The position numbers and the translations under genes are program-made. 20,878 nucleotides of DNA, from positions 1 to 20,878 of IMG/VR virus record IMGVR_UViG_3300032561_001603; one strand, written 5' to 3'. Below the pieces are notes generated by a model. It was not told the DNA's origin, searched no databases, and was given only the letters and a program-made list of their open reading frames with translations. Positions within the stretch are counted from its first letter, which is position 1. Every line of letters starts with the position of its first letter. Of this stretch, positions 507-20,878 are shown piece after piece. The DNA is from a virus.

Positions 507-509
507 CCA

Positions 510-602
<93 letters not shown>

Positions 603-1543: not shown

Positions 1544-1661
1544 GAGCGGTAGAGAAGCAAAACCCTAATGCTTGCAATGCATATTCTGGAATTGTAACCA
1601 ATCAGCAACCGCTGGCCAGATTGGACGATTCGGCCCCCGGCATGGCAGACTTTGTATACCC

Positions 1662-1749: not shown

Positions 1750-1752
1750 CTT

Positions 1753-1790
1753 CCTGCTAGTAGAGCCGTTGCGAGGCTCTCCTAAGCAGG
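1753..1790. terminator. Two-tier stem-loop between convergent tRNA and membrane gene
   Basis: An outer stem cctgct/agcagg (1753..1758 with 1785..1790) encloses an inner stem agagcc/ggctct (1762..1767 with 1775..1780). It begins 4 nt after the tRNA CCA and lies just past the stop of the convergent gene at 1819. It could end transcription or guide tRNA 3' processing. There is no T tract on either strand, so terminator function is uncertain. Confidence 0.4.
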
Positions 1791-1818
1791 CGTCTGCACA
1801 TGGTAGCGAGGGGCCTGC

Positions 1819-2151: not shown

Positions 2152-2179
2152 GGGCATTACCTCCGTGCCAAGATAGGCA

Positions 2180-2209
2180 CTCATAATGGTAAAGGCTCAT
2201 ATCGTCCAA
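2180..2209 (-). promoter_or_regulatory. Candidate promoter for the small membrane protein
   Basis: On the minus strand TTGGAC (2204..2209) and TATGAG (2180..2185) are separated by 18 nt, placing the start about 22 nt ahead of the ATG at 2151. The -35 touches the 12-bp repeat at 2208..2219. A 5-bp hairpin, gtgcc/ggcac (2165..2180), directly precedes the Shine-Dalgarno sequence and could affect translation. Confidence 0.35.
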
Positions 2210-2246
2210 CTTTGCGCAGAGCATTAATGCTTTGAACTTTGCGCAG
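2208..2246. repeat. 12-bp direct repeat flanking a 12-bp palindrome
   Basis: The sequence aactttgcgcag occurs at 2208..2219 and again at 2235..2246, a 27-bp period. The palindrome agcattaatgct fills 2220..2231 between them. It lies between the end of the integrase gene and the membrane protein gene. This is a plausible binding site for a regulator or a recombination accessory protein. At about 670 bp from the core it is far for a classical integrase arm site. Confidence 0.7.
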
Positions 2247-2263
2247 GGGGCGTTTCACCCCTG

Positions 2264-4326: not shown

Positions 4327-4350
4327 CACAGCCCTTCCACGGTAACTTCA

Positions 4351-4393
4351 TGCCGTTCCGTTCAAGACTGTGCCGTTCCGTCCGTCTTGTCAA
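4351..4393 (-). promoter_or_regulatory. Candidate int-operon promoter with repeated operator
   Basis: A perfect -35, TTGACA, lies on the minus strand at 4388..4393. The -10 is poor (cagtct at 17 nt), so activation or another start is possible. The direct repeat tgccgttccgt occurs at 4351..4361 and 4371..4381, a 20-bp (two-turn) period placed across the core promoter. The 11-mer gaacggaacgg read on the minus strand at 4353..4363 recurs on the plus strand at 20716..20726 beside attR. Confidence 0.5.
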
Positions 4394-4430
4394 GGTGCTT
4401 ATTGGCTATGTTGCTTAGCCATCATCGAAG

Positions 4431-4464
4431 ATTCATCGCAAATATCATATTGTTTCCGATGAAT
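4431..4464. promoter_or_regulatory. Imperfect 12-bp inverted repeat in the divergent control region
   Basis: attcatcgcaaa (4431..4442) and tttccgatgaat (4453..4464) pair at 11 of 12 positions across an AT-rich 10-bp spacer. It lies between the leftward integrase operon and the rightward replication operon. This is the expected place for an operator of a dimeric repressor that sets the lysogeny or excision choice. No repressor is identified with confidence. Confidence 0.45.
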
Positions 4465-4543
4465 TTTGGCCTCATCCTTCTGGACATGGCGATACCAAGT
4501 AGCACGAACGGGCCTTGGAGTTCGCCTTAGTCGAGGAGTTCCA

Positions 4544-4756
4544 ATGCCCAACAACGACCAGAACCAGGTAGAACGCCTGGCCTGCTCGATCCCAGAAGCG
4601 GGGAAGATGATCGGCCTTGGTCGGACTGCATCCTACGAAGCAGCCCAGCGAGGGGAGATACCAACGATTCCGTTTGGGGGTCGATTGGTGGTCCCCCTCG
4701 CCGTCTTCAAAAAGAAGCTCGGCGGGGGCGACTCTGAGGAAGTGGTGGCCCCGTGA
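4544..4756 (+). CDS. HTH_17/AlpA-type excisionase or regulator
   Basis: A 70-residue protein whose core, from 'CSIPEAGKMIGLGRTASYEAAQRGEIP' to 'RLVVPLAVFKKKL', is the MerR-like winged helix-turn-helix of the excisionase/HTH_17 family: a helix-turn-helix, a short wing with the GGR turn, and a closing basic helix. Such proteins bend DNA for excision or control phage promoters. I chose the ATG at 4544 because AGGAG lies 5 nt upstream; the open frame extends to 4466 without a ribosome site. It is the first gene of the rightward operon and overlaps the next gene by 4 bp (GTGA). Confidence 0.8.
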   Translation: MPNNDQNQVERLACSIPEAGKMIGLGRTASYEAAQRGEIPTIPFGGRLVVPLAVFKKKLGGGDSEEVVAP

Positions 4757-5163
4757 CCGCTGTCGAGTCCATCATCGACCGCGCCTGCAAACGGAAACTG
4801 GCGACATGGGTGCTCAGCCCTGAAGGCCTGATGAGGAACAAGAACGCTGATGATGCCCGGTATGGGTATCTGGTCGTCGTCCAGGACAGCACTGGCCCGG
4901 ACGCTTTTGATGAAGCCACTCTCAAGGCGATGCTCACGGGTGCTCAGTCAGTGCTGTGCAGCGCAGAGATGGACCAGTCACATGCAGCGATGATCGGCCT
5001 GATGCTGGATATGGCGGTTGCCCCGCGCATCGTCATCATCGTGACGATGCCCCGGCACCACGCTGCCTGGAACCGGAAAGTCGAGTTGCTGGCAGGGTGT
5101 GGCCCTCTGATCCATGTCGTTTCCGATGAAGCCACCCCCGAAGATTGGGGGTCTGCTCAGTGA
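4753..5163 (+). CDS. Hypothetical protein in replication operon
   Basis: A 136-residue protein that I do not recognise. It starts with GTG overlapping the stop of the HTH gene (GTGA) and its own stop overlaps the GTG of the replication gene, so it is embedded in a translationally coupled operon and is surely expressed. It looks like a small alpha/beta fold: a helical first third (TAVESIIDRACKRKLATWV), strands 'YGYLVVVQ' and 'PRIVIIVTMP', and an acidic C-terminus. The position between a regulator and a primase suggests an accessory replication or control role, which is inference only. Confidence 0.75.
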   Translation: MTAVESIIDRACKRKLATWVLSPEGLMRNKNADDARYGYLVVVQDSTGPDAFDEATLKAMLTGAQSVLCSAEMDQSHAAMIGLMLDMAVAPRIVIIVTMPRHHAAWNRKVELLAGCGPLIHVVSDEATPEDWGSAQ

Positions 5164-7658: not shown

Positions 7659-7753
7659 TGCAGCGTTTCTCTAGTTCCTCTCTAACGGGTCAAAAAACCA
7701 TGTATAGGGGGAGATGTAGGGGAATCATGCGCAACCCTGCACCCTGCACCTTT
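7637..7753. repeat. 18-bp perfect inverted repeat between primase and terS
   Basis: aaaggtgcagggtgcagg (7637..7654) is exactly reverse-complemented at 7736..7753, with 81 bp between. Each arm holds a tandem ggtgcag 7-mer. The left arm covers the last codons and stop region of the replication gene, the right arm lies inside the small ORF. In RNA it forms a long stem; in DNA it offers four 7-mer sites. Possible roles are a packaging (pac) site, a replication origin with iterons, or mRNA control. None is proven. Confidence 0.85.
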
Positions 7754-7855
7754 GCCCCCTGCTCGACCCCCAACACCATCGCCCACGACCCCCGCTGCTC
7801 GAAACCCCGTGTGTGCGGCCACTACACGACTAGGAATTCAGGGGTGCGCCGATGA
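7655..7855 (+). CDS. Small Cys-rich ORF coupled to primase and terS
   Basis: A 66-residue ORF whose ATG overlaps the replication gene stop (ATGA) and whose stop overlaps the terS ATG (ATGA), so both junctions are of the coupled kind seen elsewhere in this operon. It holds four cysteines and a histidine in 'CTFAPCSTPNTIAHDPRC' and 'VCGHY', which could form a zinc site. An internal ATG (7727) with GGGG upstream would give a 42-residue form. Composition is otherwise unremarkable, and I recognise no family. It contains the inverted repeat, so the open frame could be incidental. Confidence 0.45.
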   Translation: MMQRFSSSSLTGQKTMYRGRCRGIMRNPAPCTFAPCSTPNTIAHDPRCSKPRVCGHYTTRNSGVRR

Positions 7856-8379
7856 GCGCACAGAAGCTGACGCACAAGCAACAGGCCTTCGTCCGGTCAT
7901 ACGTGCGCCTTGGGGGCATGAATGCGACTCAGGCGGCCCTGGCTGCTGGGTATAGCGGCAAGGATGGTGGCGCAGGTGCAGGTGTGGCCGCGAGCCGGAT
8001 GCTGCAAAAGCCTCACATCCTGCATGCGATCCGGGAAGAGACAGAGCGCACCCTGCGGGCTGGGGTGGCTCAGGGTGCGCAGGTGCTGCTGGACCTGGCC
8101 TCGAATGCTCAGAGCGAGTCTGTGCGCCTTCAAGCAGCCACGGCCCTGCTAGACCGGGGCGGGATGCAGCTTGCCTCGATGAGCGAGCACCACATCGTTG
8201 TGGAAGACAGGCGCACCGATGCCGAGTTGCTGTCCCGAGTCGAAGAACTGAGCCGAGAGCTTGGGGTGGGATCCAGGGTCATTCCGGGGGAACTATCCAG
8301 CGTTTCACCCGCCCTGGTTGCAAATCCTGGTTACAAAAAGCCAATGACGGTTGATTCGATTGAGGTTGACCGTGAATAG
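7852..8379 (+). CDS. terS: Terminase small subunit (Terminase_2 type)
   Basis: A 175-residue protein that recognises the DNA packaging site and loads the large subunit. The N-terminus 'KLTHKQQAFVRSYVRLGGMNATQAALAAGYS' is the hallmark helix-turn-helix of Terminase_2 small subunits, at about residues 5-36. The middle (50-110) is helical with 'ESVRLQAATALLDRGG', the oligomerisation part, and an acidic C-terminal third follows. Length is typical. It is followed by a 357-bp gap and then the large subunit. In a satellite this is the gene that would direct packaging of its own DNA. Confidence 0.9.
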   Translation: MSAQKLTHKQQAFVRSYVRLGGMNATQAALAAGYSGKDGGAGAGVAASRMLQKPHILHAIREETERTLRAGVAQGAQVLLDLASNAQSESVRLQAATALLDRGGMQLASMSEHHIVVEDRRTDAELLSRVEELSRELGVGSRVIPGELSSVSPALVANPGYKKPMTVDSIEVDRE

Positions 8380-8736
8380 CGCCCGTCTAACAGACCGTTC
8401 CCTTTGCAACCCAACCCCCAAAAGGCAAGAAATGCTAGGAAGCGTAGCCGCCCATGTCGTGGTGGCACGGCCTGGGTTGAGAGCATGGGTGTCGGGCTGG
8501 CTCGATCCCCTCTCCCCCGCTAAGGCACCAACGCCTGGCCATGTGCGCATCGAGGCACCCCCTCAATCCTATGGGGTAGTCGGGCGAAATCACACGACCA
8601 GGGGGTGGGGGTGGGGGGCACACCCGGATTCGCGGGCCAACCGAAGGTCGAGGGGTGCCACCCCCGCGATTGCATGGTTTCAACCCTTCGGTGCTGTTGC
8701 GTCCGGAGCGGTCAAAAAATTCGGAGGTTCCAGAAA
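8380..8736 (+). other. 357-bp unexplained region between terminase subunits, with G-rich tract
   Basis: I see no convincing gene here. The notable structure is a G-rich block at 8601..8618 (three G-runs of five, five and six, separated by single Ts), which could fold as a G-quadruplex, and a later segment (ggggtgccaccccc, about 8653..8666) that can pair with it. An open frame covers the region from 8351 (or a GTG at 8371..8373) and ends at 8740 in ATGA overlap with terL, but its product looks random. Long gaps are rare in this element, so a DNA-level role, such as a packaging site, is possible. Confidence 0.5.
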
Positions 8737-10281
8737 ATGACCCGACCTGACCCCCAGAAATTGGCTGAGTTGGCCCAGCACCTCGAGGAACTGAAGCGCC
8801 GGAAAGAAGAGAACCGGCTGAGCTACTACGTCGCCTATACGAAGCAGAGTGAGTTCCACGAACTTGGTGCCACCAAGCGTGAGCGCATGTTCATGGCTGG
8901 CAACCAGCTTGGGAAGACGTGGTCTGGGGGCATGGAAATGACCATGCACCTGACGGGGGAATATCCGGATTGGTGGCGGGGCCGCCGATTCCAGGGGCCT
9001 GTCCGGGCCTGGGCCTCGGGTGTGACGGGTGAGAGCACCCGAGACAACCCCCAGCGCATCCTGCTTGGCCCTCTCGGGAAGCAGGGCACGGGCTCGATCC
9101 CCAAGGATTCCATTGTGGAGGTCAGGACCGGGCGGGGCCTGCCAGACGCCCTCGACAATGTTCTGGTCAAGCACAAGAGTGGTGGCGTCTCGCAGGTGGC
9201 CTTCAAGTCATACGAGCGGGGCCGGGAGAAGTGGCAGGGCGAAACTCTGGACGTGGTGTGGCTCGATGAAGAGCCGCCCATCGATATCTACTCTGAGGCC
9301 CTGGCCCGTATCGCAGCCCGTAGCGGGATGATCTACCTCACAGCCACCCCCCTGCTAGGCATGTCTGATGTGGTGCGCCGATTCCTGAATGAGCCGACGG
9401 CTGACAGGGCATACGTCCAGATGACCATTTCTGATGCCTTGCACATCAGCCCGGAGGACCGGGAACGGATCATCGAGGGATACCCAGCGCATGAGCGTGA
9501 GGCCCGCGTGAAGGGCATCCCCATGTTGGGCTCAGGCCGGGTGTTCCCTGTGGCTGAGGAAAAGCTGCTGGAGGAAGCCTTCTCGATTCCCCAATTCTGG
9601 CCCCGCATCGTTGGGATCGACTTTGGATGGGACCACCCGACCGCAGCCGCTTGGCTCGCTTGGGACCGTGACCAGGACATCGTCCACATCTATGACGTGT
9701 ATCGTGTCCGGGAAGAGACGGCCATCACCCATGCCGCTGCCATCAAGGCTAGGGGTGAGTGGATCCCGATTGCTTGGCCGCATGACGGTGCCCAGACGGA
9801 AAAGGGTGGAGGGGAGACCCTTGCTGCCCAATACAAGAAGCTGGGTCTCCGGATGCTCAACGTCCAAGCTCGCTTCGAAGATGGCGGGAACAGTGTCGAG
9901 GCCGGAGTCATGGACATGCTCAACCGCATGCAGACGGGCCGCCTGCGGGTAGCTGCCCATCTTGGTGAGTGGTGGGATGAGTTCCGCATGTATCACCGCA
10001 AAGATGGACGGATCGTCAAAGAGCATGACGACATCCTGAGTGCCACTCGATACGCCTTGATGATGCTCAAGCACGCTCGCACTGGGTCTGAATACTCCAA
10101 ACGTGGCCCCCGCCAAGCTCATGGGGTGAATTACAACGTATTCGACCCCTACGGACCTGATGAATCCGACAGCCGGGAATCGGGGATAGGGGTGGTGTGT
10201 GGTCCTCCCCCCTACGGCGACAGGACCCGCCGCCGCCGCAGCATCAGTGCGGAAGACACCGACTATCCCTTTTTCAATTGA
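8737..10281 (+). CDS. terL: Terminase large subunit (ATPase-nuclease)
   Basis: A 514-residue packaging motor. The ATPase domain shows Walker A GNQLGKT at 55-61, 'YPDWWRGRRFQGPVRAWASG' at about 75-95 typical of podovirus-type large terminases, Walker B 'VVWLDEEP' around 172-179 and the coupling motif 'TATPL' near 204. The nuclease domain begins at 'IVGIDFGWDHP' with the first catalytic aspartate near 294, and a late acidic residue in 'HDDILSATRYALM' near 430. All motor and nuclease motifs appear intact. ATG at 8737 with GGAGG 9 nt upstream; the open frame extends to 8605 without support. The next gene starts 8 bp after the stop, where a portal gene would normally be found. Confidence 0.94.
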   Translation: MTRPDPQKLAELAQHLEELKRRKEENRLSYYVAYTKQSEFHELGATKRERMFMAGNQLGKTWSGGMEMTMHLTGEYPDWWRGRRFQGPVRAWASGVTGESTRDNPQRILLGPLGKQGTGSIPKDSIVEVRTGRGLPDALDNVLVKHKSGGVSQVAFKSYERGREKWQGETLDVVWLDEEPPIDIYSEALARIAARSGMIYLTATPLLGMSDVVRRFLNEPTADRAYVQMTISDALHISPEDRERIIEGYPAHEREARVKGIPMLGSGRVFPVAEEKLLEEAFSIPQFWPRIVGIDFGWDHPTAAAWLAWDRDQDIVHIYDVYRVREETAITHAAAIKARGEWIPIAWPHDGAQTEKGGGETLAAQYKKLGLRMLNVQARFEDGGNSVEAGVMDMLNRMQTGRLRVAAHLGEWWDEFRMYHRKDGRIVKEHDDILSATRYALMMLKHARTGSEYSKRGPRQAHGVNYNVFDPYGPDESDSRESGIGVVCGPPPYGDRTRRRRSISAEDTDYPFFN

Positions 10282-10289
10282 GGTGAGCC

Positions 10290-12341
10290 ATGCCCATCAT
10301 TCAAGGCTATGACGAACACATCATGCCCCAAGGTCAGATCGGGGTGCGTGCTACACCTGACGACTTTGGTGCGCAGATCGGCCAGGGCATGCAGCGTCTT
10401 GGTGCTGGGCTGGGGGATGCCGCAGACACGGCCTTCAAAATCGCTGAATCCCAGGACGTAACAAACGTCCACGTCAACATGGCCAAAGGCAGGGCGGAGT
10501 GGACACAAAACCTCCAGGACAGGGCGAACGCAGCCCAGCCGGGAGATGAGACCTTCCTCGATAGCTTCCACAGCGACATCGCATCCTGGGCCGAAAAGGG
10601 TGCAGCTTCCGCAGCCACCCCTGCCGGGCGGAAGCTTTACGCATCAATGGCGGCCAACATGGTCAGCGAGTTCACCCAGCGTGCCATCGGCATTCATTCC
10701 GAGTTGGCTGGGCAGGACGCAAGGAACAAATACGAACTGATGATGAAGTCGGCTGGGTCTACGGTCTATCAGGACCAGTCGCAGATCGGCACGGTCATCG
10801 ATCAAAGCAAGGCATACATCGATGATCCCAAGGGGCCGTTCGCCAAGATCCCTCAGCCTACACGCGACAAGTTCAAGCAGCAGATTGAACAGGATGTCAA
10901 CTTCGCCGCCGCTCGTGGGTTCGTTCGCCACAGCCCCGATGCGTTGCTCCAGTCCGTTGCGCCTGACCAACTGACGCAGTTCAAGCCTTGGGACAATCTC
11001 ATCCAGTCGAACGCTGCCCCAGGCGGCAAGGTCAGCATCAGCCCGGAAACCATGGCACAGGCACCCGCTGTCACGGCTGCGGCTGCGGTTAAGAATGTGA
11101 ACCCCAACATTCTCCTGGCCCAGGCTGATGCCGCTGGGGGTGTGGCCGAAGACCCGAAGGTGCAGGCATCTGACGTGGCCGCCCTGCTCAAGCAATACGG
11201 GGGTGATTACCGAAAGGCCCTGGCTGCTTACCACATGGGCACGACTGGCCTTGATGCCACCCTGCAACGGTGGGGGTCCGAATGGGAGGCCAATCTACCG
11301 GAGGCAACCAGAGACTACGTCAACACGATCATGGTCAAGTCCGGGGCCGTGGCTGAGGGCCAGTCCACTGACGTGGTAGCACCAGAGCTTCCGGCCCAGC
11401 CTGACCCAACCGCACCCCCACCCCCAGCAGGCCCGCGTGCGCCCGCCGCATCGACCCTACCCTTTTTTCAGAACATGTCCTGGGAACAACAGGACCACGT
11501 TGTGAAGGAGGCGGTCCAGCTTCAGCACATGCGTATGACCATGGCGGAGAAGGCCAGGGCTGAGCAGGAATACGAACTCAAGAAGCAGCAAGACGGGGTA
11601 ATGGATGGGTTCCTGAAGCAGATCATCGACCCGGCCACGAACGGCAAGTTCAGCGAAAAGGCCGTGCTTGCTGACACGACGTTATCTTGGCAACAGAAGC
11701 AGCACGCCATTGACTACAACCTGACCCGCATGCGGGAACTCAGTTCAGCGGCTGAGACCAGGACGAACCCGGCTGAGGTTCGGCGATTGATGCTTCAGAT
11801 TCATGCCGCAGACGATGACCTGACGAAGACCTACAACATGGATCCGGTCATGGCCTCCTACAAGTCCGGGTCCATTTCCACGAACGAACTGCGAATGCTC
11901 CGGGTTGAGGTGGAACAACTCCGCAGCGGAGACACCAACAGCTTTCAGAAGCAGGTGCATTCGGCCCGTGAGGTGGTCTACACCTCGCTTGCCCGGAGTG
12001 TGTGGGGTCAGTCCATGCCTGAGGTTGCGGCTGATGCTGCCTATAGGTTCAACGCAGACATGGACAGTCGGATTGCTGAGATGCGCAAGGCGAACCAAGA
12101 CCCCCGCACCCTGCTCGATCCAGCGTCAAAGGATTACTTGCTGAAACCAGAGCGCATCAAGGGGTATCTGCCCGGCACTCAATCAGCCCTGAGCACGGGT
12201 GGGGGGAAGGTCATTCAGCAGGGGCAGAGTGACCGCACTCCCGACCCTGCCCTTGAGGTCGGCAAGGTCTATGAGGTCAAACCGGGGGTGAAGATGACCT
12301 ATCTTGGCGGGGCCAAGAATCTGAGCACGAGTTGGAAATGA
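10290..12341 (+). CDS. Internal virion/ejection-like protein with decayed transglycosylase segment
   Basis: A 683-residue protein. The N-terminus has 'DFGAQIGQGMQRLGAGLGDAADTAFKIAESQD', a style common in podovirus internal virion proteins, followed by long helices to about 230. Residues 268-345 resemble the SLT lytic transglycosylase fold: 'NPNILLAQAD' at the start and 'KQYGGDYRKALAAYHMG' near 301-317. The stretch with the catalytic glutamate (normally ESG) reads ADAAGG and the GLMQ core is missing, so enzyme activity is unlikely. A Pro-rich linker (366-389) and a coiled-coil-like segment (395-440) follow. A GAGGTGA ribosome site lies 3 nt upstream. Its stop overlaps the next gene by 4 bp. 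A role in DNA ejection across the envelope is inferred from this family style. Confidence 0.7.
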   Translation: MPIIQGYDEHIMPQGQIGVRATPDDFGAQIGQGMQRLGAGLGDAADTAFKIAESQDVTNVHVNMAKGRAEWTQNLQDRANAAQPGDETFLDSFHSDIASWAEKGAASAATPAGRKLYASMAANMVSEFTQRAIGIHSELAGQDARNKYELMMKSAGSTVYQDQSQIGTVIDQSKAYIDDPKGPFAKIPQPTRDKFKQQIEQDVNFAAARGFVRHSPDALLQSVAPDQLTQFKPWDNLIQSNAAPGGKVSISPETMAQAPAVTAAAAVKNVNPNILLAQADAAGGVAEDPKVQASDVAALLKQYGGDYRKALAAYHMGTTGLDATLQRWGSEWEANLPEATRDYVNTIMVKSGAVAEGQSTDVVAPELPAQPDPTAPPPPAGPRAPAASTLPFFQNMSWEQQDHVVKEAVQLQHMRMTMAEKARAEQEYELKKQQDGVMDGFLKQIIDPATNGKFSEKAVLADTTLSWQQKQHAIDYNLTRMRELSSAAETRTNPAEVRRLMLQIHAADDDLTKTYNMDPVMASYKSGSISTNELRMLRVEVEQLRSGDTNSFQKQVHSAREVVYTSLARSVWGQSMPEVAADAAYRFNADMDSRIAEMRKANQDPRTLLDPASKDYLLKPERIKGYLPGTQSALSTGGGKVIQQGQSDRTPDPALEVGKVYEVKPGVKMTYLGGAKNLSTSWK

Positions 12342-15300
12342 GCGAACCGCTGAACATCGACTTCATTGACCAGCCCAAGCAGGACACCAGCCTGGGCATC
12401 GACTTCATTGATCAGCCGAAGGGCAGAGCGTTCAATCCTGCACAAGGGCAACAGTATCAGCCGGGCTTCTTCAACAAATATCCGGCCATTCAGCCCGCTT
12501 CCATCGGCCCTGCCAAGCCGCACGATGAACAGTCTGATTTCATGCTGGCTCTGGATTCCACTTCTCAATTCATCCGGAAAACTCAGGCCGCCACTGAGGC
12601 CTTGAACCGGGGCATTGATGACACGATTCATGGAAGGTTCGCGGGCATCGGCGGGCGGATGGCCGATCAATACAGCGCCGAAATGGATGCCCCCCACGGC
12701 CCCGCCCGTGTTGGCAGCGGCATGGCGGATGCATTCAGGGCAGGATTGGAAGGGTCTTCGGGCGGGCTCTTAGCCCGTGGCCACCTGCCTGACGTTGTGC
12801 TCGATCCCCAGAATGCCAAGTGGTATGAAAAGCTGGCGTCCGGTGCGGGCTCGCTGATCGGCGATGCTCCGGCCATGGTCGGCGGGTTCTTGGTGGGCGG
12901 GGCCGCAGGCATCGAGACTGGGCCAGGTGCCGTCCTCATTGGTGGGGCCGCTGGGTTCGCTGCCCCCACTGCCATCCGGGAAGCGCTGGTCAATGCCTAC
13001 ACCCTCGATCAGGTCAGTAGCAGTGCCGATTTCCTGAACCGGGCGAACATATCAATCATGCGAGTCGGCAAGGATGCCCTTGTTGGGGCGCTCACCTCAG
13101 GGACCGGGGCCGTAGTTGGGAAGGCCGTTGCCCCCCTGGCTGAGGGTGCCGTGGCCGGGGGCCGCATCTCAGCCACTACGGCAAGGATCGCAACTGGAAC
13201 GGCCACAGCCGGGGCCGAAGTTGGGACCATGACCGTGGCCCCGGCTCTGCTCGAGGGCCGCCTGCCAGAGCCTGAAGACTTCATGAACGCAGCCCTGCTC
13301 GTGGGAGGCCTGAGGGGCGCGGGTGTAGTGGCTGGGAAGCTACGAGCCATCTATGCAAAGACGGGGGTTGAACCCATTCAGGTAGTAGCCGATGCGAAGA
13401 ACAACCCCGAGATCATGGCTGATCTACTGAAATCACCTACAATGGAAAGCGAGGCTGAATATGATTCCAGTCAAAGCAAAGGCACAACGGGATCTGGCGA
13501 AGTATCCCAACCCACAGGACGAGCCTTTGGAAGTGATGCACCAGCGGCTGGGGATGCCGCCCCCGGCGACACTGGAGGACGGCCCGAATTGGGCGGACCA
13601 GGATCCACGACGACCCTTGCCGAATCCCCCAGGCTCCAGTCTTACCAAGTAAGAAATATCCCTGTCATCAACGTCAATGGAGTTGAGATTGCAGGCGGCC
13701 CTCGGCCTCCCTACTTCTCTTTCCATGGAAACGTTGGAACAGACGGTGTGCCCCAAGCCGGAGGCGAAACAACAGGGGCTGCGGGAGTTGGGGTCTACAT
13801 CGGGCAGACCCACGCTACGGCAGGAAAGTTCCGGGGAGGCATGGCCGAAGACGGCACCCCCAACGGGCAAGTGTTGGCTCTTTACCACGACACCTCCCTT
13901 CTCAAGACGGTGGACCTGCGGCCAGATCGGGTCTACACCCCTCAAGAGGCCTTGGCACTTGGGTTTGACTCCCAAGGGGAGAGCGCAACCGGCCACGAAA
14001 TCAGACTCGCTTTGGTCGGGGAGTTGGGGCCTGCGGGGTTCACCAAGCACATGCAGGATCTGGGTTTCAACGGTGTGGCCTACGGCCTTGGATTGGATGG
14101 TAAGACCCCCGCCTGGTGTGTCTTTGATCAGTCCGTTTTCAAGAGAGTGACCGACACCAAGGGCTGGTCAGCGGATGAGATTGCCCGCAGGGAGGCCTTT
14201 GACCCGACTCCAATCAAGGTGGGCACTGTTCCGGTGGAGCAGCCGCTGCCCCGCGCCTACAGGCCCTTGGCAGCCGAGCGAGCGGCACAGGATGCGTTCT
14301 CTGGGGAGCGGGCACAGCAGGTGTTGGACCACCCCTTTGCAGACGTGCCTGAGACCAAGCAGCCGTTTCAACTCAACATGCGCTACATCGATGGGCCAGA
14401 GGATCTGAAGGCGCTTCAGACCCGCATGGCCGACGTGTATCAGGAAGACATCAATGCGGCTCGTGGTGGAACTCAGAGTTGGGCTGAGACTGAATCGAAG
14501 GCCGCCCAGCAGGTAGCTGATATGACTGGCCAGGATCTGGAAAAGGTTCTGGCTGGACGCCAACCGGGCGACACGTCGAATGCCGTGCAGCTTCAGATCA
14601 TGGGGGACATCCTCATGCAGGCCACGGTCGAGGCCGGTAACGCCATCAAGGCTGTCCAGGAAGCAGGCGTCAACGCTACTGATGGGATGAAGGCCGATGC
14701 TCTTTCGGCAATCCATCGCGTGGCCATGGTGCAGGCTGATTTCACCGGGGCTAGTTCCGAGCTTGGCCGGGCACTTCAATATCTTCAGAGGATCAAGGAA
14801 CTGAGGGCCAAAGGGGAAGGCCTTCGAAATCTGGTTGACCTGTATGGAGAGTCAAACCCAACGGAACTTCTTCGTCTGGCTGCTGAAGCAAACAGCCCAG
14901 AGGGCCTGGCCATGTTTGCTCGGGAAATGAACAAGGCCACCACCTGGGGCAAGGTCATCGAGTATTGGAAAGGCAGCGTGCTTGGCCCGTTGGCTGTCGG
15001 GAAGAAGGTCACTAGCGACTTGGCCATGACCGTCATGCAGCCCATCGTGGATGAGGCATCCTGGGCCTATGGGGCTGCCAGGGAAGCGATGGGCGGGGAG
15101 GAGAACACCCAGTCCGCTGCCAGGGGTGCGGCTCGGGCAGTCGGCAATTTACGGGCTGCGAGTGATGCACTCAAAATCACCTTGGCCCAGATGCGATCAG
15201 AAGGCCCTATCGATGGGGCAGCCAACGTCGTCAAGGAGATGCTATTCAAGGATGACCCAGGCGGGATGATGGGCAACCGGCATCAACTTGGCGGCAACTT

Positions 15301-16681
15301 CGGCAAGGCCATTCGAATGAACTTCAGTGCCCTGGAGTTCATCACCGAATACTTCAAGAACCTCCAGATGCGCGGGGAAGCCTACGCCATGGCAGCAGAC
15401 GAGGCCGGGAAAGCTGGGCTTTCTATCGGCACCCGTGAGTTCTGGGAGCAGGTTGGCGAGCGAGGCATGCAGCCATCTGAGGCCACCATCGACCACCTGG
15501 AACAGTTCGGCAGGCGCATGACCTTCGGTGAGAAGTTGGGGCCAGTTGGGCAGGCCGTGAACAAGCTGGTTCAGGCCGCCCCGGTGCTGGAATTTGTCGT
15601 CCCCTTCCGAAAGGCCCCGGCCAACGTCATCAAGCAGGAAATTCGGCTATCTCCGCTGGCACCGTTCTCGGAGCAGTGGAGGGCTGACTTCAAAGCCGGG
15701 GGTGAGACCCAAGCCCGTGCCCTGGCTGAGATGACAGTTGGAACGGCCATCGCTGGGCTGGCCATGTCCTGGGCCGCCTCTGGCCGCATCAGTGGGGCGG
15801 GCGATCCTGACCCCGCCAAGCGTGCGACCCAGATGGCCGCAGGCTGGCAGCCTCACAGCATCAAGATTGGGGGCAAGTGGTATTCCTATGGGAAGGTCCA
15901 TCCAACGGGGCTTCTCATGGGTATGGTGGCCGACGTCCACGACATGTGGGGCTACATGGATGCTGGGGATTCAGACAAGGCGCTAAAGGCTGTCCAGAAT
16001 GCAGCCGCTGAGGCCATCAAGGAACAGCCCTTTCTCCAGGGTGTTGAGAATGCCTCTGATGCACTCCAGGCTGCGGACGGCAAGGGCGCTCGATTCGCGC
16101 AGAACTTCGTGTCGGGGTTCGTCCCTATGGGCGGCACCCTCAGCACCGTGGCCGCAGCCATGGACCCTTACCGCCGCGAGGTAGACAGCATCATGGCCGC
16201 CGTCATGAACAAGGTCCCAGGGTTGCGGCAGAACCTAGAACCTAAACGGGATCTGTTCGGCCAGGAAATTCCAGAATCCCAGCGCCTGCTGGGCCTCAGT
16301 CCGATCAAGGCCACCGAACCAACAGAGGACAAGGTTCGGACTGAAGCGGCCCGGCTTGGCATCAGTTCCCCCCACATTCCGAAGTCCATCCAACTCCCCG
16401 CTGCGCACATCCATGACCTGGGCAAGGTTGAACTCACCCCCCAGCAGCGTGACGTGTTCGGCGACGTGGCTGGGCACATGGCCTATCAAGTCCTGGCTCA
16501 GATGGTGAACAGCCCTGGGTGGGACTACATGCCCGATCTGGTGAAGCAGCGGGCCTTCACAGTGGCTCTGGAGAAGACGCACAAGGCTGGGGAGATGGCT
16601 GCCGTGTCAGACGAGCAGAGGCAGAAGGAAATCCAGCGCATCATCGGGGTGGTGGGGGAGAAGCTCAAACCCCCGAAGTAA
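12338..16681 (+). CDS. Giant polyvalent ejection protein with ART-like and LPD38-like regions
   Basis: 1447 residues, the largest gene. It starts with two IDFIDQPK repeats (7-14 and 21-28). Glycine-rich hydrophobic stretches at about 167-220 and 245-300 could insert in membranes. Residues about 457-605, from 'YFSFHG' through 'GAAGVGVYIGQTHATAGKF' to 'LGFNGVAYG' and 'WCVFDQSVFKRV', look like the ADP-ribosyltransferase-fold domains of phage polyvalent proteins. Long helices follow. From about 870 on, 'YWKGSVLGPLAVG', 'WQPHSIKIGGKWYSYG' (1169) and 'RDLFGQEIPES' (1304) match the style of LPD38 regions in giant internal virion proteins. Such proteins are injected with the DNA. ATG at 12338 overlaps the upstream stop (ATGA). 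Domain calls are from memory. Confidence 0.7.
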   Translation: MSEPLNIDFIDQPKQDTSLGIDFIDQPKGRAFNPAQGQQYQPGFFNKYPAIQPASIGPAKPHDEQSDFMLALDSTSQFIRKTQAATEALNRGIDDTIHGRFAGIGGRMADQYSAEMDAPHGPARVGSGMADAFRAGLEGSSGGLLARGHLPDVVLDPQNAKWYEKLASGAGSLIGDAPAMVGGFLVGGAAGIETGPGAVLIGGAAGFAAPTAIREALVNAYTLDQVSSSADFLNRANISIMRVGKDALVGALTSGTGAVVGKAVAPLAEGAVAGGRISATTARIATGTATAGAEVGTMTVAPALLEGRLPEPEDFMNAALLVGGLRGAGVVAGKLRAIYAKTGVEPIQVVADAKNNPEIMADLLKSPTMESEAEYDSSQSKGTTGSGEVSQPTGRAFGSDAPAAGDAAPGDTGGRPELGGPGSTTTLAESPRLQSYQVRNIPVINVNGVEIAGGPRPPYFSFHGNVGTDGVPQAGGETTGAAGVGVYIGQTHATAGKFRGGMAEDGTPNGQVLALYHDTSLLKTVDLRPDRVYTPQEALALGFDSQGESATGHEIRLALVGELGPAGFTKHMQDLGFNGVAYGLGLDGKTPAWCVFDQSVFKRVTDTKGWSADEIARREAFDPTPIKVGTVPVEQPLPRAYRPLAAERAAQDAFSGERAQQVLDHPFADVPETKQPFQLNMRYIDGPEDLKALQTRMADVYQEDINAARGGTQSWAETESKAAQQVADMTGQDLEKVLAGRQPGDTSNAVQLQIMGDILMQATVEAGNAIKAVQEAGVNATDGMKADALSAIHRVAMVQADFTGASSELGRALQYLQRIKELRAKGEGLRNLVDLYGESNPTELLRLAAEANSPEGLAMFAREMNKATTWGKVIEYWKGSVLGPLAVGKKVTSDLAMTVMQPIVDEASWAYGAAREAMGGEENTQSAARGAARAVGNLRAASDALKITLAQMRSEGPIDGAANVVKEMLFKDDPGGMMGNRHQLGGNFGKAIRMNFSALEFITEYFKNLQMRGEAYAMAADEAGKAGLSIGTREFWEQVGERGMQPSEATIDHLEQFGRRMTFGEKLGPVGQAVNKLVQAAPVLEFVVPFRKAPANVIKQEIRLSPLAPFSEQWRADFKAGGETQARALAEMTVGTAIAGLAMSWAASGRISGAGDPDPAKRATQMAAGWQPHSIKIGGKWYSYGKVHPTGLLMGMVADVHDMWGYMDAGDSDKALKAVQNAAAEAIKEQPFLQGVENASDALQAADGKGARFAQNFVSGFVPMGGTLSTVAAAMDPYRREVDSIMAAVMNKVPGLRQNLEPKRDLFGQEIPESQRLLGLSPIKATEPTEDKVRTEAARLGISSPHIPKSIQLPAAHIHDLGKVELTPQQRDVFGDVAGHMAYQVLAQMVNSPGWDYMPDLVKQRAFTVALEKTHKAGEMAAVSDEQRQKEIQRIIGVVGEKLKPPK

Positions 16682-16770
16682 CCCCTATGTCTGGTAAAAT
16701 TAAGCAGCGTTGGAGAGGCCCTGGTCCCCGATAACCCCGTGATCCTTGGCACTTTCCCCACTGCAAAAAG

Positions 16771-16799
16771 TTGCGGGATTTGTATTCCCTCTACATAAT
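16771..16799 (+). promoter_or_regulatory. Candidate promoter of the hairpin-array RNA
   Basis: TTGCGG (16771..16776), a 17-bp spacer and CATAAT (16794..16799, five of six matches to the -10 consensus). The expected start is near 16806, 7 nt before the first hairpin. The 89 bp before it, after the giant gene, hold no convincing gene; a 15-codon basic frame at 16687 has no ribosome site. Confidence 0.55.
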
Positions 16800-16805
16800 T
16801 CAGCC

Positions 16806-16960
16806 TGGAACCCCGTAAGGCATGCCTTACGGCCCCCACCCCCTGCGGGGTGGGACTATCACCAGAAGGCACGTCCTTCTGGCCCCGGTGCCCTGCGGTG
16901 CCGGACTAATCTCCAAGGGGTATACCCCAAGGTGCCGGTCGCTAGCGCGACCGGTTTTTT
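16806..16960 (+). ncRNA. Tandem twin-hairpin RNA, three 50-nt units
   Basis: Six hairpins, each with 8-nt arms, are arranged as three pairs. Pair 1: ccgtaagg-catg-ccttacgg (16813..16832) and cccacccc-ctgc-ggggtggg (16835..16854). Pair 2: ccagaagg-cacgt-ccttctgg (16862..16882) and ccggtgcc-ctgc-ggtgccgg (16885..16904, two G-U pairs). Pair 3: ccaagggg-tata-ccccaagg (16913..16932, two A-A mismatches) and ccggtcgc-tagc-gcgaccgg (16935..16954). Hairpins in a pair are 2 nt apart and pairs 7-8 nt apart, so the period is 49-51 nt. Stems differ between units but keep pairing, which points to selection on structure. A promoter precedes it and T6 follows the last hairpin, predicting a transcript of about 155 nt. 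No known RNA family is recognised. Confidence 0.7.
16935..16960 (+). terminator. Intrinsic terminator, last hairpin of the array
   Basis: An 8-bp GC-rich stem ccggtcgc/gcgaccgg with loop tagc, followed by six T residues (16955..16960). It ends the hairpin-array transcript and stands 36 bp before the NYN gene, so partial read-through would set expression of that gene. Confidence 0.88.
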
Positions 16961-16996
16961 ATTGTGGGCACCATTCCCAGGGCGTAAGTTCGAGTG

Positions 16997-17668
16997 ATGT
17001 CAAAGACACGAGTTATCGCCTTCATCGATGGATACAACTTTTATCACTCGGTTCATGAGATGAACCCTGTTGATCGACGGACGGGGCGGTTGCTCAGGAT
17101 AAAGGACCACCTCAAGTGGGTGAACCTCTGGTCCCTGGTAAAGGCATTCACTCAGCCCTCCAAAGAAGATTTGATTGGCGTCCACTACTTCTCTGCTTAC
17201 GCCACCTGGAGACCCGCGTCATTTGCCAAGCATCGAGCCTTTGTAGCTGCCTTGAAAACCACGGGCGTCAACGTGGTCCTAGGCAAATTCAAAGAGAAGC
17301 CCAGATCGTGCCGCAAATGCGCCGCTACTTGGAAAGGCCACGAGGAGAAGGAAACCGACGTGAACCTCGCCCTGTATCTGCTGGACCTCGCCTATAAGGA
17401 TGAGTTCGACAAGGCAATCGTGCTGACCGCTGATACGGACATCCTCCCTGCCATCCGCATGGTGAAGGACCGATTCCCCAACAAGGAAATCGTCGGGCTA
17501 CTTCCGAATACTCGATTCGTGGCCGCGAATGCTCTGAGAACCCTCTGCCCGGTGAGCAGCTTTAACGAGGGGCATCTCAAGAAGAACCTATTCCCGGCAG
17601 TGATAGCTGTTCCTGGGAGCAAGGACATCGTCCGGCCCCCAGCTTACGACCCTCCGGCTGTTCCGTAG
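16997..17668 (+). CDS. NYN-domain (PIN-like) nuclease
   Basis: A 223-residue protein of the NYN/LabA-like superfamily, metal-dependent PIN-like RNases. The acidic centre is visible: D11 in 'IAFIDGYNFY' with N14, then D121 in 'EKETDVNLALYLLD', and D146/D148 in 'IVLTADTDILPAI'. The insertion 'CRKCAATWKGH' (C105, C108, H115) may bind zinc or RNA. The C-terminal 30 residues are Pro-rich. The ATG at 16997 is preceded by an in-frame GTG at 16994; no good ribosome site is seen for either, suggesting low translation. It lies directly after the hairpin-array RNA and its terminator. Cytoplasmic RNA cleavage is the likely activity; a defence or toxin role is inferred from context. Confidence 0.85.
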   Translation: MSKTRVIAFIDGYNFYHSVHEMNPVDRRTGRLLRIKDHLKWVNLWSLVKAFTQPSKEDLIGVHYFSAYATWRPASFAKHRAFVAALKTTGVNVVLGKFKEKPRSCRKCAATWKGHEEKETDVNLALYLLDLAYKDEFDKAIVLTADTDILPAIRMVKDRFPNKEIVGLLPNTRFVAANALRTLCPVSSFNEGHLKKNLFPAVIAVPGSKDIVRPPAYDPPAVP

Positions 17669-17671
17669 CCC

Positions 17672-17714
17672 GATCCTGGTATGGAACTTGATCACAACTG
17701 AGGTAGACAGGATC
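17672..17714. promoter_or_regulatory. 7-bp inverted repeat upstream of the NTase gene
   Basis: gatcctg (17672..17678) and caggatc (17708..17714) are exact inverted copies with 29 bp between, in the short gap between the NYN and nucleotidyltransferase genes. It could be an operator or a weak hairpin; no clear promoter is seen with it. Confidence 0.3.
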
Positions 17715-17757
17715 CCGACATCCTGGTGAAATTCCCGCTTACCTCCAAGAGGAACCT

Positions 17758-18369
17758 TTGCTGAGCCTCACAGATCAGGGAGTCTTGCCCCCATTCATAG
17801 GGGATCCAGCCTCCGAGGGGCCGTCAGGGTTTTCGCCTTTCTTGTTCACACCGGAAGATTTCGTGGCTGTCTTTGGGACAAGCCCTCACAGAAGCCGGAT
17901 CCTCACGGGATTCTTTGAATACCGTAAGGCGCTCCGAAGATTCGGGGTGAGCGGGACCCAATGGATTGGGGGCAGCTTCGTCGAAGACTGCAAGAAGATT
18001 CGAGGGCGTGAGCCAAGCGATATTGACGTGGTCACTTTCATTGATGGGGCCACGGTGCCCCAGCCTGGGCACCCTCTGCACGAAGATTTCAGAACCTTCA
18101 TTTCCCACAGCCATCGAAAAGTGTTGAAGGCTGATTATCTCTGCGATGCATTTATCGTGAGCGCGATGTATCTCCACCCTTCTGGCGGCCTGATGAATGT
18201 CTATGCCGCAACTGATGTGGTCAGGTATTGGTGTAACTTCTTCGGGCATTCTCGATCCATAGCCGGAGCCGCCCAGGTCTGGAAGGGCATGGTGGAGATT
18301 CCCCTTTCAACCGATCCTGTTGATGCAGAGGCTGTCAGGCTGCTTGAGAAGGAAGGGGGTGGATCATGA
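17758..18369 (+). CDS. Nucleotidyltransferase-fold protein (DUF6932-like)
   Basis: A 203-residue protein with a nucleotidyltransferase signature: 'IGGSF' (G71, G72, S73) followed by 'SDIDVVTF' with D88 and D90, the GS...DxD pattern of the MNT/pol-beta type fold. The opening 'QGVLPPFIGDPA' and 'TPEDFVAVFGTSPHR' match the style of DUF6932 proteins. These domains transfer nucleotides to proteins or RNA, or act as antitoxins or toxins; the substrate here is unknown. The start is TTG at 17758, supported by AGAGGA 4 nt upstream. It overlaps the next gene by 4 bp (ATGA), so the pair is one translational unit. Confidence 0.72.
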   Translation: MLSLTDQGVLPPFIGDPASEGPSGFSPFLFTPEDFVAVFGTSPHRSRILTGFFEYRKALRRFGVSGTQWIGGSFVEDCKKIRGREPSDIDVVTFIDGATVPQPGHPLHEDFRTFISHSHRKVLKADYLCDAFIVSAMYLHPSGGLMNVYAATDVVRYWCNFFGHSRSIAGAAQVWKGMVEIPLSTDPVDAEAVRLLEKEGGGS

Positions 18370-19310
18370 GTAGAGTGACTGATCGATCCTTCCTGCTGGC
18401 CCAAGAATCTGAACTCATCAGAATGGTCGAAGCGTGCTCACAAGATGATTGGTTCCGTCGTGACACCCTTCAGGCTCGTCTCGATGCGGTGCGAGAGGAA
18501 TTGGAAGCGCTTCCGATAGAAACCGTGGTTCCGAGGCCAGCGGAAGTCGCCATGCTTTTTGACGGCGCTCCCGTGGAGGCAAGGAAGGGCATTGAGGCCG
18601 CATTCGTCCCAGAGGCAATTGAGAAATTCACCGCCCTGGTAGCTGCCCGGCTAGAGGAAATTCGGAAGAGGGTCGGCAAGTCGCTTCAGCATCAGTTCAG
18701 TGCCAGGCCCCTATTAATCGTTGGCACGGCTGAGGGCTCATTCGGGTTCCAGTTCCGTGAGGCTGCGGCCCCCGCAGAGGACAATAAGCTCATCGGCAGT
18801 TCATACACCGAAGAGGCCATCAAGGATGCCGTAGCACTCATCAACGACTTCGACAAACTGGATGACGCGCATTTCAGCAAGCGTGTCGCACAAATTGACC
18901 GGCGATCCATCCAGGCTCTGGCTGGATTCTTCCAGCACGTTGTGGATAACAAGGCGACACTAAAATTCCGCTCGGACGCGATCAACACTGAAATCGACCG
19001 CCCGTCTGTTCTTCACATCGCAGAGCGAGCCCGGCAGGTTGAAAAGCAGGCGGACACCATCGACATTCCGGGGATGCTGTATGGGCTGATGCGATTTGGG
19101 CGAAGGTTCGAATTCCAGCCTGAAGTCGGGAAATGGTTCGATGGCCGAATCGCCGATACCTTCGACATGGGCACCGCGCCAAGGGAATTGCCTACCAAGT
19201 GTGTCGGGGTCTTTCATCAGGTCCGCGAGCTACATGTGGGGAAGGGAGCGAGGCCCCGGTGGAGGCACGAGCTACTTGCCATCAAGCCTTGGATCGAAGG
19301 GGAGTCGTAG
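18366..19310 (+). CDS. Partner protein of the nucleotidyltransferase, unknown
   Basis: A 314-residue protein starting with the ATG that overlaps the stop of the NTase gene. The first 115 residues are strongly helical and charged, with heptad-like leucines ('LQARLDAVREELEAL', 'VAARLEEIRKRVGKSL'). Next comes a short beta part, 'PLLIVGTAEGSFGFQF' (about 115-130), then another helical region ('AIKDAVALINDFDKL'), and a C-terminal part with 'DIPGMLYGLMRFGRRFEF'. I do not recognise a named domain. Strict coupling to the nucleotidyltransferase suggests the two proteins act together, perhaps as a toxin-antitoxin or defence pair. No enzymatic motif is visible. Confidence 0.72.
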   Translation: MSRVTDRSFLLAQESELIRMVEACSQDDWFRRDTLQARLDAVREELEALPIETVVPRPAEVAMLFDGAPVEARKGIEAAFVPEAIEKFTALVAARLEEIRKRVGKSLQHQFSARPLLIVGTAEGSFGFQFREAAAPAEDNKLIGSSYTEEAIKDAVALINDFDKLDDAHFSKRVAQIDRRSIQALAGFFQHVVDNKATLKFRSDAINTEIDRPSVLHIAERARQVEKQADTIDIPGMLYGLMRFGRRFEFQPEVGKWFDGRIADTFDMGTAPRELPTKCVGVFHQVRELHVGKGARPRWRHELLAIKPWIEGES

Positions 19311-19460
19311 ATTCTCGGTTCCAGTGGAACAGCCGCTGCCACGGCAGAGGGTGGCCCCCCGTTGCGACCCTCGCACCATGTGGCGACTCTCACGACAGAA
19401 GTAGCCCTCTTTCTGTAGCGAAAATCGCAACATGTTGAGATAATAACAACAGAAATAATT

Positions 19461-19492
19461 AGACTTGACACGAGTCTCGGGCAACCCAAAAT
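19461..19492 (+). promoter_or_regulatory. Promoter and operator for the terminal two-gene operon
   Basis: TTGACA (19465..19470) and CAAAAT (19487..19492) with a 16-bp spacer. An inverted repeat agact/agtct (19461..19465 with 19473..19477) embraces the -35 and could be an operator. The region just upstream (19421..19460) is the most AT-rich part of the right side and includes the palindrome caacatgttg (19428..19437). Confidence 0.6.
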
Positions 19493-19526
19493 TGGCAGGT
19501 CAAACAACCCGCCAAGGAGGCGACCC

Positions 19527-19898
19527 GTGGAAACCACCTATGAATCGATCAACACCAAGGGCATCCTGCACGACATCGCAGAGGACGCCATTCAACTGAA
19601 CAACATGTTGGTCTGGTTCGGTGTGGATACCTTGCCTGCGGAGGTCCAGGCCTCTCGGGAAGAGCTTTACCAAGCCCTCCAGGCAGAGCGGCCCATGAGC
19701 AATGGCGACCTCTGTGCCATTGCCAATGAGTGCGCCTTCATGGTGGCTGCGATCCTCGACCCGACAGAGGGCATGGACATGATCAACTGGGTCGGGGGAG
19801 AGCCCAGCCGCATCCTCGTGGACCTGCTTAGGAAGCTCGTGCCCTTGGGCTTGATGGACAACTACACGCGAGAGAATGGCGGGTTCGGTATCTGGTGA
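19527..19898 (+). CDS. Small acidic protein, unknown, first of two-gene operon
   Basis: A 123-residue acidic, mostly helical protein starting with GTG; AAGGAGG lies 6 nt upstream, the best ribosome site in the window. The first half ('ILHDIAEDAIQLNNMLVWFGV', 'ASREELYQALQAERP') is amphipathic helix, the second half more hydrophobic ('ECAFMVAAILDPTEGMDMINWVGG'). I recognise no family. Its stop overlaps a GTG of the next frame (GTGA) and it has its own promoter upstream. An acidic first gene followed by a possible ADP-ribosyltransferase-like protein would suit an antitoxin or an immunity partner, which is speculation from gene order. Confidence 0.72.
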   Translation: METTYESINTKGILHDIAEDAIQLNNMLVWFGVDTLPAEVQASREELYQALQAERPMSNGDLCAIANECAFMVAAILDPTEGMDMINWVGGEPSRILVDLLRKLVPLGLMDNYTRENGGFGIW

Positions 19899-19906
19899 GG
19901 CGGGGC

Positions 19907-20587
19907 ATGACGATTGAGGAGCAATACCGGGAGTGGGAGGAGACAGGCCGGGAATGGATCGGCAACCTCATGCCCACCCTGCGGGGCCACGGCTGCGTCT
20001 GGCACAGATGCACCGTGGCGGGACTCCAGGGCATCGTGAGAGCCGGGGCAATCCTCCCAGCAGGGGAGACAACCGAGCCTTCATGCGTGAGTGACTGCCA
20101 GGCGCACCGTCTAGGCGCTGTGCCCCTATTCGACTTCGACAACCCGACAGAGCGAGAGGTCTATCGTGCAGCGAAGATGGGGTGGGCTGGGTTCTTGCAC
20201 GGGGAAGAGGGGATCACGGTATGGCTGAGGATCCCTGTGGGCCGCTTGGACCCTGGCGGGCTGCTTCTCCGTGACGTGGAAGCCGCCAAGGGCAACCCCC
20301 TCATCTCACACCGCTACAAATGGATCCCCTATGTCGAGGCCTGGCACCTGGCCCCAATCGACTGGCGAAATGTAGACCAAGCCTGGGCCGTCCGGATGCC
20401 CTATGGCGGGGGTGCCTACACCATGACCGGCCTGAGCCTCGCAGACCCCGTATCGGAGGCCCAGCAACTTCGCCAAACATGGGGTGAGGAGTGGGAGCGG
20501 AGACGGGCTCTGGACCGTGCGGAAGGGAAGATCGATCTTGGAGAAGCGCTGAGGGAGGCTCAAGCGCGGCGGCAATCTGAGGCCTGA
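19907..20587 (+). CDS. Possible ADP-ribosyltransferase-like protein, unknown
   Basis: A 226-residue protein. The segment 'VWHRCTVAGLQGIVRAGAILPAGE' resembles the start of DarT/ART-type folds (an aromatic-His-Arg/Thr opening, then a helix ending in 'I..G.i'), and 'YKWIPYVEAWHLAPI' near residue 145 resembles the late strand carrying the catalytic glutamate in such folds. The match is weak and a different fold is possible. The C-terminal 40 residues are a charged helix. The ATG at 19907 has GAGG 6 nt upstream; a GTG at 19895 overlapping the previous stop would add four residues. It is the last gene before attR and is co-transcribed with the acidic protein. Confidence 0.6.
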   Translation: MTIEEQYREWEETGREWIGNLMPTLRGHGCVWHRCTVAGLQGIVRAGAILPAGETTEPSCVSDCQAHRLGAVPLFDFDNPTEREVYRAAKMGWAGFLHGEEGITVWLRIPVGRLDPGGLLLRDVEAAKGNPLISHRYKWIPYVEAWHLAPIDWRNVDQAWAVRMPYGGGAYTMTGLSLADPVSEAQQLRQTWGEEWERRRALDRAEGKIDLGEALREAQARRQSEA

Positions 20588-20751
20588 TCCCACACGGCCA
20601 ACACAGGGCGGGTTTTGCAACCGGGATGTAACCGGACGCCCCATAACGGGGCCGGACAGGGCAGCATACAGATACCCTCAAACCCCCGGTTTTGCTGGGT
20701 TTCTCGGACGATTCAGAACGGAACGGACAGGCGGAAACACTATGGAGCCGA
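20588..20751. other. Right arm of the element beside attR
   Basis: This stretch has no gene. It contains a hairpin gcccc/ggggc (20638..20652), flanked by repeated ccggac, and a 6-bp stem aaaccc/gggttt (20680..20702, 11-nt loop) that could weakly end transcription in either direction. The tandem site gaacggaacgg (20716..20726) lies 25 bp from the attR core and is also present in the integrase operon promoter. Together these look like recombination accessory sites next to the attachment core. Confidence 0.5.
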
Positions 20752-20760
20752 TTTCAAGAC
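20752..20760. repeat. attR core, 9 bp
   Basis: Second copy of tttcaagac, in direct orientation to 1535..1543. To its left is element sequence (gccga), to its right host tRNA sequence (tggcgcc). The 9 bp are the exact limit of identity between the two ends. Confidence 0.88.
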
Positions 20761-20790
20761 TGGCGCCATCAACCGCTCGGCCAACCCTCC
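20752..20790 (-). pseudogene. Host tRNA-Ser(UGA), 5' half
   Basis: The minus strand begins GGAGGGT (5' acceptor strand, first base at 20790), then a serine-type D arm with GCC/GGC stem and AGCGGTT loop, the 5' anticodon stem CCAGT and loop CTTGAAA. After the core the sequence becomes element DNA that cannot pair with CCAGT, so the tRNA is broken here. This half keeps the original tRNA promoter side, so a truncated transcript running into the element is expected. Confidence 0.93.
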
Positions 20791-20878
20791 GTGCGAACAG
20801 TTTGCCCTGGGGGCCCCCGATTCGTCCATTTTGGACCCGGGAGGGAGGGGGCCGAGGCTGGGGCGTGACTGGTCCGGT

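Follow-up and report, generated by a model that had tools for sequence, protein, structure and literature searches.

A tandem twin-hairpin RNA beside an NYN nuclease gene: a probable RNA-controlled toxin or phage-defence module not yet described

What is the function of a run of six hairpins lying between a virion gene and a nuclease gene? The question is raised by an IMG/VR record of 20,878 bases (the whole stretch that we analysed, hereafter the window), in which the hairpin array is placed between a gp16-like gene, ending at 16681, and an NYN-domain gene, starting at 16994 or 16997. A preliminary description of this DNA, made from its sequence, had recognised the hairpins without naming a functional partner, and we propose that this partner is the downstream NYN RNase gene. 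Together, RNA and nuclease gene probably constitute a module of an undescribed kind, a toxin or an anti-phage defence under the control of RNA. Its parts are the following.

16771..16799, + strand: putative sigma70-type promoter TTGCGG-17-CATAAT, read from the sequence, with a weak -35 box
16813..16832, + strand: hairpin 1 (unit 1A), 8 bp, loop CATG, a perfect 20-bp palindrome
16835..16854, + strand: hairpin 2 (unit 1B), 8 bp, loop CTGC (kept in relatives)
16862..16882, + strand: hairpin 3 (unit 2A), 8 bp, loop CACGT (5 nt)
16885..16904, + strand: hairpin 4 (unit 2B), 8 bp including two G-U pairs, loop CTGC
16913..16932, + strand: hairpin 5 (unit 3A), CC-AA-GGGG-TATA-CCCC-AA-GG, loop TATA, with an internal loop of two A.A mismatches
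16935..16963, + strand: hairpin 6 (unit 3B) and U-tract, an intrinsic terminator (stem 16935-16954, loop TAGC)
16997..17668, + strand (GTG start at 16994 also possible): NYN-domain (PIN-like) RNase, HEC-09 (Pfam NYN, 4.3e-10; PADLOC HEC-09, 1.9e-42)

The array, the nuclease and the element that carries them

All six hairpins are present, in three pairs, between 16813 and 16954. The 50-nt period and the likeness of units 1 and 2 (74% identity over 34 nt) were also as described, and so was the third unit, with its mismatched hairpin 5 and its terminator in the place of hairpin 6. The linkers inside the pairs are CC, CC and TG in units 1, 2 and 3, and those separating the pairs are ACTATCA and then ACTAATCT. 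Hairpin 6 is followed, on its 3' side, by TTTTTTATT, and this terminator separates the RNA from the NYN gene. Folding of the array, one of the checks that had been suggested, gave a minimum free energy of -90.2 kcal/mol (z -5.3 relative to dinucleotide shuffles), and none of 200 shuffles was equally stable. The longest chain of hairpins on the + strand of the window consists of four perfect 8-bp hairpins (gaps of at most 10 nt), against a maximum of two in 40 whole-window shuffles. The layout had been thought to belong to no known family, and Rfam indeed gave no match at the gathering score; a permissive search of 16690-17010 returned sub-threshold matches only. The putative promoter, with its poor -35 box, fell under the threshold of our promoter scan. 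It would place the start of transcription at about 16806, for which there are no transcript data. We regard 16806-16963 as a small RNA gene in its own right, about 150 nt long and with inferred transcription. It comprises three twin-hairpin units in tandem.

The gene downstream encodes a protein for which a Pfam search found NYN alone. The match to the HEC-09 profile is near full length (residues 5-216) and the catalytic residues are present. In PADLOC, HEC-09 stands for Hma-embedded candidate 09, a candidate defence family held as a protein model. Residues D11, E117, D121, D146 and D148 are invariant in homologues, and for the metal-binding aspartates (D11, D121, D146 and D148) this holds in two alignments of 19-20 homologues. 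An AlphaFold model of the protein (pLDDT 94) resembles PDB 2qip and the MARF1 NYN domain with Z scores of 16.6/15.1, and also 14.7, far above all other rows of the comparison. Judging from alignment and model, the RNase fold and active site are intact; data on RNase activity and toxicity are lacking. The family is widespread on plasmids, with 346 matching PLSDB records at E <= 0.001, and a tblastn search of the host's class found no copy of the window's NYN.

Which element carries this pair? A Holophagaceae metagenome-assembled genome (L007) has an empty site, which window positions 1-1543 match at 99.7% and 20752-20878 at 100%. The two flanks join there at a 9-base core. Hence, the element at about 1544-20751 is complete, with about 19.2 kb, and its insertion target is a tRNA-Ser(UGA) gene. 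It encodes an integrase, a D5-type primase, terminase subunits (TerS, TerL) and two T7-like ejection proteins; we recognised no capsid, portal or tail genes in it. We read it as satellite-like, either as a T7-like phage's satellite or as a prophage that has been reduced, and the RNA/NYN pair is part of its cargo.

Several other features of the element deserve mention. The chromosomal tRNA-Ser(UGA) is split in its anticodon arm (core TTTCAAGAC; window 1535-1749 and 20743-20878), and the element has a complete tRNA-Ser(UGA) of its own at 1662-1749, which apparently replaces the broken host gene. The region of TerS/TerL and the T7-like ejection proteins spans 7852-16681. A 37-nt inverted repeat (76%, 43 nt between the arms) lies at the end of the primase gene, at 7637-7753, and is a possible origin or regulatory site. 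Finally, 17758-18369 encodes a DUF6932 protein similar to the PADLOC candidate PDC-M63A (3e-12), in which a nucleotidyltransferase-like motif can be seen by eye; this could be a second defence gene in the cargo region.

Conservation of the RNA upstream of NYN genes

Is the array kept in relatives of the nuclease gene? A scan of viral contigs with an NYN alignment gave 80 loci. In the four closest relatives (L068, L069, L070 and L071; 44-46% identity), three twin hairpins again precede the NYN start codon. The stems have about 8 bp each, and 1-3 nt (mostly 2) separate the hairpins of a pair; the second loop is of the CTGC type and the sixth hairpin is a terminator. Two of these relatives (L068/L069) also have an internal loop resembling that of hairpin 5 and, at the matching place, a promoter TTGACA-17-GATAAT. 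The sequence of the stems has changed almost everywhere and the pairing is retained. In an alignment of 11 units, 91.4% of the cells are paired and 13 of 16 pairs have changed on both sides. The covariation score is 0.632, compared with 0.203 +/- 0.033 in shuffles, of which 0 in 500 reach it, and with at most 0.176 when the structure is slid. These paired changes bear out the earlier proposal of selection on RNA shape. The cruciform DNA offered as its alternative fares less well, since every array that we found precedes an NYN gene.

The loops tell a different story from the one first proposed. Each first loop had been read as self-complementary (CATG, ACGT, TATA), which would allow loop-loop kissing. 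Two of them are as read; that of hairpin 3 has five nucleotides, CACGT, of which ACGT is only a part. We rejected the kissing itself, because the first loops of the relatives differ (CAAG, CACG, TACG, GAAA and CAATC, among others) and are not kept self-complementary. It is the second loop, CTGC/TTGC, that is conserved.

A covariance-model search had also been suggested. We built a model (R1) from the units of the window and the four relatives and ran it over 100 sources (416 kb). Every non-training match at E < 0.2 was just upstream of an NYN gene: the remaining units of the training loci (unit 3 of the window, units 1 and 3 of L071) and the new loci L098, L128 and L078/L080. Run over 93 genomes of the host's class, the same model gave five weak matches only (Holophagae, L148-L152), and the two closest genomes contain no DNA copy. 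We therefore rejected a host repeat, and a known REP family, which would have refuted the preliminary reading, was not met. In viral contigs, a DNA pattern made from units 1 and 2 found nothing. A looser two-loop pattern found 16 contigs, only three of which fold as arrays; these adjoin NYN genes and are contigs already listed (L183, L185 and L189 are those of L068, L070 and L069, respectively). The remaining ones have low-complexity CCCTGCGG repeats or are chance matches.

How far does the association extend? In Acidobacteriota genomes, on plasmids and in viral contigs, most of the NYN genes inspected are preceded by a structured stretch that ends in a terminator. We quantified this with 98 NYN loci from several phyla, non-redundant on their upstream sequence. 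The stretch from -125 to -15 has a median fold z of -3.1, against -0.2 in 300 control ORF starts of the same loci (p 1e-32). A same-strand terminator within 110 nt is found in 76 of the 98 loci (78%) and in 113 of 569 controls (20%), and promoter-like sites occur in 49 loci where shuffles predict 12.5 +/- 2.5. As the control ORFs came from mechanical calling, some of them are not real. The length of the hairpin chain did not discriminate (95% of the controls have a chain of at least two), and the terminator and z-score statistics were used instead. About a fifth of the loci lack a clear terminator, e.g., L101, L104 and L105. Once frames antisense to NYN itself are excluded, protein neighbours recur in 5 of the 98 loci at most. 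Hence, the RNA is the only conserved partner that we found.

The units vary in number, from one to three, and in sequence. L074 has a single twin unit, two small enterobacterial plasmids (L050, L051) have several hairpins upstream of NYN, and in an E. coli plasmid (L061) a 33-nt sequence is repeated in tandem (2.6 copies, 96% match), with one more, diverged copy, before the terminator and NYN. A second RNA model, trained on single-twin RNAs from Acidobacteriota and viral contigs, describes another type: 33 distinct sequences, 95.3% paired, with a covariation of 0.676 compared with 0.207. That alignment was fitted to the model and the figure leans towards it. Between distant NYN clades the RNA types are alike in layout and not in sequence; we speak of one kind of RNA because position and structure are shared.

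Possible roles of the RNA

We are highly confident that the RNA gene at 16806-16963 is functionally paired with the NYN family. What could the RNA do? Promoter, RNA repeats, terminator and RNase gene make up the checklist of type III toxin-antitoxin systems (PMC8860590). Since the anatomy of the locus matches this list, we propose an RNA that keeps the NYN RNase silent by binding to it. The promoter would provide abundant RNA, and the terminator would leave little read-through into the nuclease gene. The folded units would bind the nuclease and hold it inactive, with the CTGC loop on every second hairpin as the likeliest contact, by inference. Phage infection, or loss of the element, would stop the supply of RNA, and the nuclease, once freed, would cut RNA. 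This antitoxin function by a type III-like mechanism rests on analogy, and we hold it to be only somewhat more likely than not: binding, inhibition and a role in defence are all inferred.

The hairpins could instead be the 5' leader of the NYN mRNA, bound or cut by the nuclease, or setting its level by attenuation at the terminator, without any antitoxin function. This would suit their usual place, upstream on the same strand with the terminator ahead of the start codon. However, four loci (L029, L030, L031 and L117) encode a clear member of the RNA upstream of NYN but on the other strand, in divergent orientation. Three of them (L029, L030 and L117) show a TTGACA box and a TA-rich box, about 17 nt apart, ahead of the RNA. 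In these four loci the RNA cannot be the leader of the NYN mRNA. Attenuation would not need a tandem duplication of units either, and some RNAs exist without NYN. The second model gave 19 matches below E 1e-10 in 396 Acidobacteriota genomes. Among the 17 that were classified, 11 are beside NYN (several being training sequences), 1 is beside an NYN fragment (L167) and 5 had no NYN that we could find (L157, L159, L164, L166 and L168). Orphan RNAs would be expected if only the nuclease, and not the RNA, does harm on its own, though the numbers are small. We find an autoregulatory leader improbable. Also unlikely, in our view, is a role as activator, guide or sensor of the nuclease, in which a phage product that disturbs or binds the RNA would, for example, switch the nuclease on. 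In favour of such a role, HEC-09 is a candidate defence family whose genes occur on plasmids, in prophages and in satellites, and the conserved CTGC loop and the covarying stems point to an RNA that binds protein; yet there is no variable segment resembling a guide, and the orphan RNAs and the tandem-repeat layout suit an antitoxin better.

Two further explanations make less of the nuclease. An RNA gene that has its own promoter and terminator and is carried by a phage satellite-like element could produce a small RNA acting in trans on host or phage mRNAs, with NYN adjacent only as shared cargo and perhaps processing it. We hold this to be very unlikely, given that the adjacency to NYN is kept across phyla and in mobile elements with unrelated neighbours. 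Hardly tenable is the idea that the array is a stack of terminators or the 3' end of a phage late operon, a REP-type repeat, or DNA for cruciform formation, packaging or replication. In the window, the array does come after the last of the T7-like virion genes and end in a terminator, and hairpin 1 is a perfect DNA palindrome. Nevertheless, the array tracks NYN and not phage genes, and the host's class has no clear copies such as a REP-type repeat would leave. The late-operon version was rejected on the T7-like relatives L003-L005, in which the gp16-like gene is directly followed by a tail-fibre gene with no array; this moved our attention to the NYN gene. A search of genomes for relatives of the gp16-like gene gave none that were useful. 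Furthermore, in ten annotated plasmid loci the upstream gene is directed away from NYN, so the hairpins there are not the 3' end of another operon.

Comparison with known systems and other NYN-linked RNAs

How does the proposed RNA antitoxin compare with known ones? Like the type III systems ToxIN, CptIN and TenpIN (for E. coli ToxIN, see PMC8860590), the locus has a putative promoter, tandem RNA units, a terminator and an endoribonuclease gene, and occurs on mobile elements and in a context of phage defence. The promoter is weak in the window and strong in the relatives, and across the family promoter-like sites exceed the shuffles by the counts given above. The tandem repeats are met by the three twin units, and by the near-identical 33-nt repeats of L061; the terminator is met in the window and in most loci. 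The toxin is not: the nuclease has an NYN/PIN-like fold, that of 2qip and MARF1, and is not ToxN-like. The repeats of type III systems are near-identical, whereas units 1 and 2 of the window have diverged, each unit is a twin hairpin, and NYN loci have few copies. The NYN-linked RNA gene can be divergent, unlike those of type III. In type III systems, the RNA unit folds into a pseudoknot and closes a ring together with the toxin. Nested hairpins explain the covariation seen here (pseudoknots were not searched). Inhibition has not been demonstrated. We therefore do not file the pair under type III, as the nuclease is not ToxN-like and neutralisation is only inferred.

Other known systems share single traits. 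The CRISPR-associated NYN protein of Bacteroides, a related one, is an Mn-dependent RNase. It shares the catalytic aspartates, and its D13A mutant does not cleave; trimming of crRNA was proposed for it, and the accessible part of its description mentions no adjoining dedicated hairpin RNA (PMC11346440). REP and BIME elements likewise consist of short palindromes in runs between genes, but this array lacks dispersed copies in the host or its class and is tied to one gene family. For HEC-09 itself, we found no RNA partner in the open literature, and searches of 5.39 million open papers gave none that links an NYN nuclease with an antitoxin RNA; as this leaves aside preprints and subscription papers, a prior description is not excluded.

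The pair could belong to a widespread, undescribed class of modules, in which an NYN (PIN-like) endoribonuclease is controlled by its own hairpin-array RNA. This would be a new type of RNA antitoxin, with its own nuclease fold and RNA architecture and with a part in phage defence. Its members would be those of Acidobacteriota, Pseudomonadota, Deinococcota, Spirochaetota and Actinomycetota, and those carried by plasmids, prophages and satellites. We consider this class as likely to prove wrong as right. Computation shows the RNA structure and covariation, the adjacency to NYN over several phyla, terminators, promoter-like sites, the intact catalytic site, the one to three units, the lack of a conserved protein partner and the divergent RNAs; transcription, binding, inhibition and defence are inferences without transcript, binding or toxicity data. 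If true, it would provide a partner and a mechanism for the large uncharacterised HEC-09/NYN family, found on hundreds of plasmid records and many viral contigs, and extend control by RNA antitoxins beyond ToxN-type families to a PIN-like nuclease. The finding supplies short RNA-protein pairs for a direct test and a covariance model to find the RNA gene.

Some NYN loci have additional features. L172 is grouped with L167 among the orphan RNA copies, in which the NYN gene is absent or only a fragment. Four small enterobacterial plasmids (L050, L051, L054 and L059) carry an extra long, near-perfect inverted repeat, with arms of about 20-30 bp, upstream of the hairpin RNA. L066 encodes, at 1750-2691, a 313-aa NYN-family protein annotated with an Xre/MbcA/ParS toxin-binding domain. 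This locus, together with L057, L058 and L063-L065, has a different type of NYN-linked RNA, in which CAACCCC...TTGGGGTG closes a loop (GCGATTAAGTT in L063/L064) and a terminator follows. The CAACCCC type is found on plasmids of Klebsiella, Pantoea, Marinobacter, Aeromonas, Hydrogenophaga and Cupriavidus.
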